A program made the position numbers and the translations under genes. Under the pieces are notes generated by a model. It worked only from the letters and a program-made list of their open reading frames with translations. It was not told the DNA's origin and did not search any database. A stretch of 64,000 nt of DNA from Coriobacteriaceae bacterium EMTCatB1 (lineage in GTDB: Bacteria; Actinomycetota; Coriobacteriia; Anaerosomatales; Anaerosomataceae). Location: assembly GCA_001950395.1 (NCBI GenBank), contig BDLO01000001.1, positions 186,001 to 250,000 on the forward strand, written 5' to 3'. This document shows, one piece after another, positions 58,436 through 61,546 of the stretch (positions within the stretch are counted from its first letter, which is position 1; each line of letters begins with the position of its first letter).

Positions 58436-58514
58436 CTGCATACAAGACGCGCATAGTTGCATACTCAGGCAACCTCTTCCACAGCAGGTACACTCTTGCG
58501 CTATAGTTATGCGC
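58436..58514 (+). promoter_or_regulatory. Operator-like CATA repeats and promoter before the second binding-protein gene
   Basis: TGCATA at 58437, GCGCATAGTTGCATA at 58449-58463, and GCGCTATAGTTATGCGC at 58498-58514 share GCGCATA (the last on the opposite strand). Two possible -10 boxes lie here: TACACT (58489-58494) and TATAGT (58502-58507), the second inside the last repeat. The layout suits repressor binding; the motif is loosely like ArgR-type boxes, but that is a guess. Confidence 0.4.
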
Positions 58515-58565
58515 AGGTTGTGGGCCGGGCGGCTCAGGCACCCGGGTGGATGACAGGAGGAGCTC

Positions 58566-59435
58566 ATGGGCACGTTCCGCAAGGCGCTCGCACTGCTGGT
58601 TGTGTGCGCGCTGGCGTTGGGCGCTCTCGCGCTCGGCGGTTGCGCGAAGAAGGAGAGCACTGACACCGGCGGCCAGACGGGCGCGCGCGTCATCAAGAGC
58701 GTCGACGACCTCAAGGAAGGCGACAAGGTCGGCGTGCAGTCCGGAACGACGGGTGAGGCTTGGGCGAAGAAGAACCTCGAGCCCAAGGGCGTCCAGGTCG
58801 TTCCGTACGACGACATCTTGCTTGCTTTCCAGGCGCTTCAGGCAGGAGATGTCGTGGGTGTTATCAACGACCTGCCGATCTCGCAGGACATCGTGAAGGA
58901 TGAGGCGCGCGGGCTGGAGATCGTGCAGGAGATCCAGACCGACGAGACCTACGGGTTCGCCTTCAACAAGAACAATCCGACGCTGCGCGATGCGGTGAAC
59001 TGGGCTCTCGCCGAGGTCATCAAGGACGGCACCTATAACGAGATCTACACGAAGTGGTTCGGCTCCGAGCCGATGTCGATGCCGGAAGCCACGAGCGGTG
59101 TGACTGAGAAGCCAGCCGGCGAGATCAAGACCCTCACTCCTGGCAAGATCATCGTCGGTTCCGACACTGCGTTCCCGCCCTTCGAGAACGTCGAGAACGG
59201 CGAAGTCGTGGGCTTCGACGTCGACCTCATGAAGGCGATCGGCGAGAAGCTCGGCATGACCGTCGAGTTCAAGAGCTACAAGTTCGACGCGCTCATCACC
59301 GGTCTGCAGGCCGGCACCGAGTTCGACATGGTCGCATCAGCCATGACCATCACAGACGAGCGCAAGCAGTCCGTGGACTTCTCCGATCCGTACATCAATT
59401 CCAACCAGTCTCTTGCGGTTCGCAAGGCACAGTAG
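58566..59435 (+). CDS. Circularly permuted polar amino acid-binding lipoprotein (SBP family 3)
   Basis: 289 residues. Signal peptide with lipobox ending in Cys26. The family's second half comes first: DDLKEGDKVGVQSGTTGEAW (47-66), ALQAGDVVGVINDLPIS with Asp102, and the terminal helix DGTYNEIYTKWFG (154-166). A linker of about 25 residues follows, and then the family's first half: GKIIVGSDTAFPPFE (193-207), VVGFDVDLMKAIGEKLGM, ALITGLQAGTEFDMVA, MTITDERKQSVDFSDPY (260-276, Arg266 intact) and NQSLAVRKA, ending at 289. All ligand residues seem present. The order is a circular permutation with new ends at the hinge between lobes. GGAGG precedes the ATG. Confidence 0.93.
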   Translation: MGTFRKALALLVVCALALGALALGGCAKKESTDTGGQTGARVIKSVDDLKEGDKVGVQSGTTGEAWAKKNLEPKGVQVVPYDDILLAFQALQAGDVVGVINDLPISQDIVKDEARGLEIVQEIQTDETYGFAFNKNNPTLRDAVNWALAEVIKDGTYNEIYTKWFGSEPMSMPEATSGVTEKPAGEIKTLTPGKIIVGSDTAFPPFENVENGEVVGFDVDLMKAIGEKLGMTVEFKSYKFDALITGLQAGTEFDMVASAMTITDERKQSVDFSDPYINSNQSLAVRKAQ

Positions 59436-59536: not shown

Positions 59537-60790
59537 GTGCGGCGGGAAGTGCGTAATCGCATCGTCCAGGTGGTGTATGCGGCGCTGGGCATAGCACTGC
59601 TGGCTGCATTGCTCACGATGACCGGGCCTGATCGGCTGGTCTACGACCACCCGGCTCCTCGGGGCCAGAAGGGCATGGTTCACGACACCTTCCCGATCCC
59701 GCCCGTGCTCGACACAGTCACCATCGCGAAGCAGAACGCGAATGTGGTCTTGCCGCAGGCGGAGCTCGCTCCTGGCAGCGTCGTTCGATTGAAGAGGCAA
59801 CCCGCGGGGGGCGGTATGGCCTCCTCATCGTGGGTAGTCGAGTCAGCTGAGACGTCGCCCTCACCCGTGTTGCTCAACGGGCAGCCTGTGTCGGGAACGC
59901 CAACGCTCTCTGACGGGGACGTGCTGACGATCGGCGGCGTGCCCGTCACGTTCGAGTCTGGGCGCCGCGGCATCCTCGGCGCTCTCGACTGGTGGGAGAC
60001 CGGCAAGGTGTCGCACCTGTTCGCGTCACCGAAAGTCGTCGCTCAGGCCTTCCCTCACGTTCTCAAGGCATTTCCGGTCTCACTCTTGTGCGTCCTGGTG
60101 GCGTACTCGCTCGCGATACCCGGGGGCCTGACGCTCGCGTTCATGAAGATGGCGCGCTCAGCGTGGTTCCGCTGGCCGTCGACCGCGTACATCGACTTCA
60201 TCCGTGGAACGCCGCTGTTTCTGCAGATCCTGATCGTCTTCTTCGGGCTGCCGCTGCTCCCGCCGTGGCAGGCCCTGCTGGCTGCGTTTCCGGGGCTCAA
60301 TGAGCCCGGTCCCTTCGGCCCGACGTACTCGCTGTACCTGCGCGCCTTCGTGGTGCTGTCGTTCAACTCGGCTGCGTACATGGCGGAGATCTTCCGTGCC
60401 GGCATCCAGTCGATCAGCAAGGGGCAGATGGAGGCGGCGCGCTCGCTCGGCATGACGACTGCGCAAGCGATGACCTTCGTCATCATCCCGCAGACGGTTC
60501 GACGCATCCTGCCGACGATGATGTCCGAGTTCATCCTGCTGTTCAAAGACACGTCGCTCTTCGCGGCGGTCGGCATGGGCGAGATGGTCATGCGAGCGCG
60601 CGAAGTCGCTGCTTCGAGCTACAACGTGTCGCCGTACCTGCTCGCGGCCGTCTTCTACCTCGTGGTGACCATCCCGCTCGGTCGCGTGGTGCACCGGCTC
60701 GAGAACCGGCTGGCGCAATCTGAGGGCGGCGCGATCTCGGTCTCGGAGGCGCGGCCGACCATCGATTCTGAGCACGCGATCGCGGTGTGA
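59537..60790 (+). CDS. Amino acid ABC transporter permease with an extra FHA-like extracytoplasmic domain
   Basis: 417 residues; usual HisM/GlnP permeases have about 220. One helix (about 8-28) is followed by about 145 exported residues. In these, about 58-142 look like a beta-sandwich of FHA type, ending VLLNGQPVSG, LSDGDVLTIGGVPVTFE. The FHA phosphothreonine residues (G-R and S-x-x-H) are missing. The normal permease part starts near 170 (VLKAFPVSLLCVLVAYSLA), with YIDFIRGTPLFLQILIVFFG and the EAA loop AARSLGMTTAQAMTFVIIPQ. GTG at 59537 follows GGAGG; an upstream GTG at 59522 is weaker. Confidence 0.9.
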   Translation: MRREVRNRIVQVVYAALGIALLAALLTMTGPDRLVYDHPAPRGQKGMVHDTFPIPPVLDTVTIAKQNANVVLPQAELAPGSVVRLKRQPAGGGMASSSWVVESAETSPSPVLLNGQPVSGTPTLSDGDVLTIGGVPVTFESGRRGILGALDWWETGKVSHLFASPKVVAQAFPHVLKAFPVSLLCVLVAYSLAIPGGLTLAFMKMARSAWFRWPSTAYIDFIRGTPLFLQILIVFFGLPLLPPWQALLAAFPGLNEPGPFGPTYSLYLRAFVVLSFNSAAYMAEIFRAGIQSISKGQMEAARSLGMTTAQAMTFVIIPQTVRRILPTMMSEFILLFKDTSLFAAVGMGEMVMRAREVAASSYNVSPYLLAAVFYLVVTIPLGRVVHRLENRLAQSEGGAISVSEARPTIDSEHAIAV

Positions 60791-60802: not shown

Positions 60803-61546
60803 ATGGACAGCAACAGCGAGCCGATCGTCCGCATCAAAGGGCTGCGCAAGCGTTTCGGCGACCTCGAGGTCCTGCGCGGCGTGGACATGGACGTGCGCAA
60901 GGGCGAGGTCGTGGTGATCCTGGGGCCGTCCGGTTCGGGCAAGTCGACGCTCCTGCGGTGCGTGAACCGGCTTGAGGAGCCCACGGGCGGCGAGGTGTGG
61001 TTCGAGGACACGCTCGTCAACAGCCCCAAGACGGACATCAACGCTGTGCGCGAGAAGATCGGGATGGTATTCCAGAGCTTCAACCTCTTCCCGCACCTCA
61101 CCGCAAGGGGAAACGTGATGCTCGCGCAGCGCAAGGTGCTTAAGCGCTCGAAAGAGGAGGCCGAGCGTATCGCGATCGAGCAGCTGACGCGCGTCGGGCT
61201 CGCCGACCGCATCGACTACTACCCCGCTCAGCTTTCGGGCGGCCAGCAGCAGCGCGTCGCGATCGCGCGAGCGCTCGCGATGGATCCGCACGTCATGCTG
61301 TTCGACGAAGTCACCTCGGCGCTGGATCCCGAGCTCGTGCGCGGCGTGCTCGACGTCATGAAGCAGCTGGCTCTCGGCGGCATGACGATGCTCGTCGTGA
61401 CGCACGAGATGGGCTTCGCCCGCGACGTCGCCGACCGCGTCGTGTTCATGGACGGCGGCGTGATCGTCGAAGAGGGGCTGCCGGAAGAGGTGTTCGACAA
61501 CCCCAAGCACGAGCGGACCAAGGACTTCTTGGGGCACATCAGCTAG
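60803..61546 (+). CDS. Polar amino acid ABC transporter ATP-binding protein (GlnQ/HisP family)
   Basis: 247 residues. Walker [17 protein letters not shown] loop [12 protein letters not shown], signature [17 protein letters not shown], Walker [15 protein letters not shown] and switch histidine [11 protein letters not shown], all intact. N-terminal [19 protein letters not shown]. It would drive the permease before it, 12 bases away, as a homodimer. Last gene of the transporter operon. Confidence 0.96.

Follow-up and report, generated by a model that had tools for sequence, protein, structure and literature searches.

A family 3 SBP lipoprotein with its halves in reversed order, very probably a natural circular permutant, in a putative amino acid importer operon

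The window, a 64,000-nucleotide stretch of DNA from Coriobacteriaceae bacterium EMTCatB1, contains a single open reading frame (P0001) in which the two halves of the SBP family 3 fold are reversed and the old termini are joined by a linker. By synteny and trees, this gene is orthologous to the canonical form. The encoded protein is very probably a functional substrate-binding lipoprotein of a polar-amino-acid ABC importer and a natural circular permutant of its own family; binding and transport are predicted from the sequence. The features of the locus are collected in Table 1.

Table 1. Features of the permuted gene and its neighbors
Feature	Residues	Position	Strand	Basis or remark
Canonical-order SBP family 3 lipoprotein gene (P0002)	292 aa	57552..58430	+	Conserved operon partner
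Sigma-70-like promoter match between the two SBP genes		58478..58507	+	Weak; 0.6 expected by chance
Shine-Dalgarno AGGAGGAG		58555..58562	+	Read from sequence
Circularly permuted SBP family 3 lipoprotein gene	289 aa	58566..59435	+	Stop TAG; kept in 23 genomes
Signal peptide to lipobox	1-25	58566..58640	+	Sequence
Lipidated Cys26, lipobox LGGC26	26	58641-58643	+	Cys26 invariant
Post-lipobox spacer, putative new tether of the small lobe	26-42	58641..58691	+	Alignment
Segment B, canonical second half	43-166	58692..59063	+	Profile and structure alignments; limits from PMC7400645
Linker part 1, SEPMSMP, ancestral C-terminal tail	167-173	59064..59084	+	Sister canonical proteins end ...AEPLSIP
Linker part 2, presumed remnant of ancestral post-lipobox spacer	174-186	59085..59123	+	Inference
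Linker part 3, IKTLTPG, ancestral N-terminal flank of mature domain	187-193	59124..59144	+	Alignment
Segment A, canonical first half	194-289	59145..59432	+	Profile and structure alignments
Polar amino acid ABC permease with N-terminal ectodomain		59537..60790	+	Profile matches
GlnQ-like ATPase		60803..61546	+	Profile matches

Order of the halves, break point and junction

Profile searches placed PF00497 positions 97-131 ahead of positions 1-95 within the single 289-residue frame, both halves being matched in two stretches with a score of 143.5 bits (cut-off 26.4). The NCBIfam GlnH model (121-247) aligned with residues 41-169 and TIGR01096 (22-119) with residues 191-288. In AncQR (4zv1), the best solved relative, chain residues 10-105 correspond to residues 193-288 and 107-232 to residues 41-166. 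The fold runs B-linker-A instead of A-B, the canonical order of PF00497, and on these alignments the product is a permuted descendant of PF00497 and no canonical member. Segment B comprises hinge strand 2 (about residues 125-129), the C-terminal helices of the large lobe and all of the small lobe except its first strand; segment A supplies the large lobe, hinge strand 1 (residues 276-280) and the first small-lobe strand. The preliminary description had proposed this order of halves, a linker of about 25 residues between the old termini and a lipoprotein signal. The reversed profile coordinates, a linker of 25-27 residues and a signal peptide with lipobox bear out all three.

When re-indexed (A + B), the protein was 39.6% identical to Escherichia coli GlnH over 225 residues. 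GlnH D10, F13, F50, T70, R75, D157 and Y185 are unchanged as D200, F203, F240, T261, R266, D102 and Y129, respectively, and GlnH K115, G119, H156 and G68 are replaced by Q58, T62, N101 and A259. The ligand-binding Asp/Thr/Arg/Asp set of amino acid SBPs is present (D200, T261, R266 and D102), including Arg266 and Asp102, whose retention had been claimed from the letters of the window.

In the same alignment, the chain end, Gln289, corresponds to mature residue 98 of GlnH, and segment B starts at 99. GlnH has a large domain of residues 5-84/186-224, a small domain of residues 90-180 and a hinge at 85-89/181-185 (PMC7400645). Given that position 98 falls within the small domain, the alignment puts the break some 9 residues after hinge strand 1, within a loop of the small lobe, and leaves both hinge strands intact. 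The new ends had earlier been assigned to the hinge itself; they do lie near it, but the exact site is in the small lobe. Since the cut is in the small lobe, the lipid tether would have shifted there from the large lobe, which carried the old N-terminus.

A tree of the re-indexed halves (74 rows) recovered the permuted forms as one clade (97/90 support, 98% of bootstrap trees) nested among canonical forms, the nearest of which were L025, L026, L027, L132 and L133. In a 70-row tree to which a second permuted group (see below) was added, the permuted clade appeared in only 54% of bootstraps; a tree holding it together had a slightly better likelihood and was not rejected (p-AU 0.53). In the window's own family, the canonical genes fall on other canonical branches. 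Between permuted and canonical genomes of one genus, the upstream gene is 69-74% alike and the SBP 53-57%. These two results suggest that an SBP-permease block was replaced between lineages.

The origin of the linker can be read by comparison with its canonical sisters. The latter have the layout C-spacer-...TLTEGKIIVGSDTA...NSNQSLAVAADST/IATVDDL...KWFGAEPLSIP-stop, and the permuted proteins read C-spacer-...IKSVDDL...KWFGSEPMSMP-EATSGVTEKPAGE-IKTLTPGKIIVGSDTA...NSNQSLAVRKAQ-stop. The linker is composed of the ancestral C-tail (EPLSIP), ∼13 residues and the ancestral N-terminal flank (TLTPGK), and its length is nearly constant, with 38-40 residues from the W to PPFE. This composition fits the fusion of tandem copies followed by loss of the outer halves. 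The comparisons show that, in the same operon, an ancestor of canonical A-B order gave way to a form in which a 25-27-residue linker joins the old C- and N-termini. The new ends of this form are in the small-lobe loop that connects the first strand to the first helix, just past hinge strand 1. As to the route, an in-frame tandem duplication and fusion of the ancestor would have produced A-B-A-B, from which the first A would have been deleted and the chain truncated after the second A. The permuted protein would then capture an amino acid and pass it to the adjacent permease and ATPase, as canonical orthologues would, the main mechanical change being the transfer of the lipid tether from the large to the small lobe.

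The same route of duplication, fusion and loss had been put forward in the preliminary description. The make-up of the linker is consistent with it, but no A-B-A-B intermediate was found in this lineage, and the gene flanks gave only weak short matches to the lost halves. Both of the latter results would also be expected if the B-coding segment, with its C-tail, had moved between the lipobox spacer and A with no tandem duplication, which would give an identical final arrangement. Such a move is nevertheless rather unlikely, since it requires an in-frame excision as well as an in-frame reinsertion, and tandem SBP-SBP fusions exist both in the class (L135) and among solved structures (6h30), making a duplicated intermediate viable. 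Tandem duplication and fusion is the preferred route. The upstream gene, P0002, which had been proposed as the duplication partner, was ruled out for this role: it is only ∼30% identical, and relatives that have a canonical second SBP carry it at the same position.

Predicted fold

An AlphaFold2 model based on 18 permuted sequences was compact and bilobed (pLDDT 90.1, pTM 0.85). The model of the canonical sister (pLDDT 93.8, pTM 0.87) has matching strands and helices in rotated order. Foldseek aligns sequentially, with TM normalized to the query, and 50 PDB matches were listed for the permuted model. Among these, leaving aside isolated single-lobe constructs scored over their own length, no TM exceeded 0.43, compared with values up to 0.89 among the matches listed for the canonical sister. 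Segment A alone matched 4zv1 at 1.1 Å over 84 columns (Foldseek). The top match of the permuted model was the tandem 6h30, the only solved structure colinear with the permuted order among the PDB matches listed. The permuted protein is thus predicted by modeling to fold intramolecularly into a two-lobed clamp with hinge strands and ligand pocket intact.

A protein that works only as a domain-swapped dimer, with B packing on segment A of another chain, is a very improbable alternative. The long linker could permit swapping, and TmArgBP (4prs), a relative among the structure matches, is known to be domain-swapped. The AlphaFold2 model, however, is a compact monomer with high pTM, the linker fills the whole gap between the old N- and C-termini, and both hinge strands are kept.

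A second permuted gene in another class

In a phylum-wide sample, a 298-residue open reading frame outside the window's class was also found in permuted order (L136/L149/P0004; G519:C100, 1335-2228). L136 is 42% identical to P0001, and the better of its two PF00497 stretches pairs residues 191-295 with profile positions 1-90. Canonical order is found in its nearest relatives (G327, G461 and G352), which share 58-77% identity with it in the A half and 56-68% in the B half. L136 and these relatives occupy the same place, after livG-livF and before the permease, in an operon that differs from that of the Coriobacteriia. The L136 linker carries the tail of its own relatives (FPDQEVPDY / FPEQDLPDYASE), and each half separately joined the canonical relatives L138-L140 in trees. 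By eye, L136 ends at the GlnH-equivalent position 98, as does P0001.

The equivalent break point could be taken to mean that all permuted genes, including that of G519, descend from a single ancient event and that canonical order was restored in the lineages between them. One shared origin was rejected, given that uniting the permuted forms and L136 in a single clade costs 164 log-likelihood units (p-AU 4.4e-5), and the grouping of both halves with canonical genes, the relatives' tail in the linker and the different operon speak against it as well; such a history is exceedingly improbable. L136 apparently arose in another class through a second permutation event, independent of the first, at the equivalent residue, a reading that rests on one MAG of 68% completeness. 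Further cases like that of G519 were found neither in 24 genomes of its class nor in two largely overlapping samples of about 395 phylum genomes. If the same change did occur in both lineages, the loop after hinge strand 1 of family 3 SBPs may be a site where natural permutation recurs, with at least two uses so far, and the change may be adaptive through the shift of the lipid anchor. This proposal is tentative and, in our estimate, somewhat doubtful. Were it correct, anchoring by the small lobe in place of the large one would change the affinity of the protein, its docking or its opening dynamics at the membrane, and new permease ectodomains may have accompanied the change.

A terminator-like GC-rich hairpin followed by a T-run was noted at about 2230-2290 of L149 in G519, between the permuted SBP and the permease.

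Distribution, known systems and transporter context

To define the distribution of the permuted form, a search was run over 69 genomes of the order (Anaerosomatales-like Coriobacteriia), in which a permuted gene gives one continuous match and a canonical gene two reversed matches. Permuted forms were present in 23 genomes and canonical forms only in 40, a split obtained by reading individual search rows; six had no match at the threshold used. The preliminary description had advised looking for the same order of halves in related genomes and had regarded canonical order in relatives as evidence against it; some relatives do have the canonical order, yet the permuted order itself is kept in 23 genomes. 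The permuted forms are spread over seven families (f1, f5, f7, f8, f10, f14 and f16); in f1, f5 and f7, canonical forms occur as well. G146, a MAG with 7% contamination, is the only genome with both forms; its permuted and canonical operons (L049 and L084) are on short contigs. Comparison of 36 loci revealed a P0002-like canonical SBP, a permuted or canonical SBP, a permease and an ATPase wherever the contig was long enough. Permuted and canonical orthologues hold the same operon position, and their halves are 70-82% identical. No permuted relatives were confirmed in viral contigs, and among plasmids the best 40 of 1,429 matching records were all two-piece, the pattern of canonical genes.

Between related permuted genes, dN/dS was mostly 0.02-0.08 in both halves, the outlier being the A half of one gene pair (0.134). 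The permuted gene is neither an assembly error nor a pseudogene. The earlier view of it as functional-looking and not broken agrees with the kept ligand residues, low dN/dS and the order shared by 23 genomes, function itself being a sequence-based prediction. An assembly error or chance join of two broken half-genes has next to no probability and is already refuted for the main, Coriobacteriia case: each half does resemble a truncated SBP and many relatives are MAGs, but order, break points and linker length are alike in 23 separately assembled genomes, that of the window consists of one 1.84-Mb contig, and dN/dS is low. The stop codon is TAG in 22 of the 23 distinct permuted genes and TAA in the other.

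As a rule, natural circular permutations are inferred from comparisons of distant proteins. In the present case, matched permuted and canonical pairs occur at one operon position across one bacterial order, with a linker that still shows which ends were fused. Such pairs could be used to test the effects of permutation on folding, hinge motion, affinity and docking, and they are natural equivalents of the binding proteins that biosensor engineers permute by design. Compared with canonical members of the family (PF00497; GlnH, ArtJ, HisJ and AncQR 4zv1), the permuted protein has homologous halves, retains the ligand residues and both hinge strands, and belongs to the same type of transporter; it differs in being reversed at GlnH 98/99, with the old ends fused by a linker and the tether predicted to be on the small lobe.

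Naturally permuted SBPs are already known. TpMglB-2 (Tp0684) of Treponema pallidum, classed as "Type Ic / Cluster Bc," is a lipid-anchored SBP with a natural circular permutation conserved in relatives; it has a type I sugar-binding fold in which permutation within the N-lobe adds a fourth crossover, and only 13% identity links its permuted end to the corresponding part of EcMglB (PMC4990184). The present protein is likewise a permuted, lipid-anchored SBP kept in relatives but is PF00497/GlnH-like and lacks the type I sugar-binding fold. CPSARST detected permutation relationships among glycine-betaine-binding proteins (2B4L versus 1R9L/1SW1), molybdate-binding proteins and CysB, all from structure, at <24% identity and between different families (PMC2395249). 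These cases also concern SBP-like folds, whereas here orthologues at one locus are compared, with halves 70-82% identical. In the GlnPQ SBD1-SBD2 tandem (6h30) and L135, B is followed by A in one chain (B1-A2), which provides a model for the duplicated intermediate; both hold two complete canonical domains, and the permuted protein has one domain's worth of sequence. No natural family 3 SBP permutant was found in the open-access literature. The novel points are that the permutant belongs to this family, that closely related canonical orthologues share its locus, that the junction can still be read and that the event was apparently repeated at an equivalent residue.

The permuted SBP gene forms an operon with a PAAT permease and a GlnQ-like ATPase, and a permease bearing an ectodomain adjoins most permuted forms. 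No Pfam match was found for this ectodomain (about residues 40-150), which appears FHA-like by eye only. The permease of canonical relatives has a different ectodomain (KVTVDxxTGGxxTRFTF type) or none. A requirement of the permutation for the permease ectodomain was rejected, given that the permease beside permuted L018, L057 and L131 is the short one seen in their canonical sisters.

Two further arrangements were noted. L135 (G160), from the same class as the window, combines a tandem A-B-A-B SBP and a permease in one long open reading frame. Long open reading frames of about 980-1110 residues in Marine Group II archaea (L095, L098, L099, L105, L107, L113, L114, L116, L122 and L123) gave two segment A matches, with the B match ahead of the best A; these are probably tandem SBP domains.
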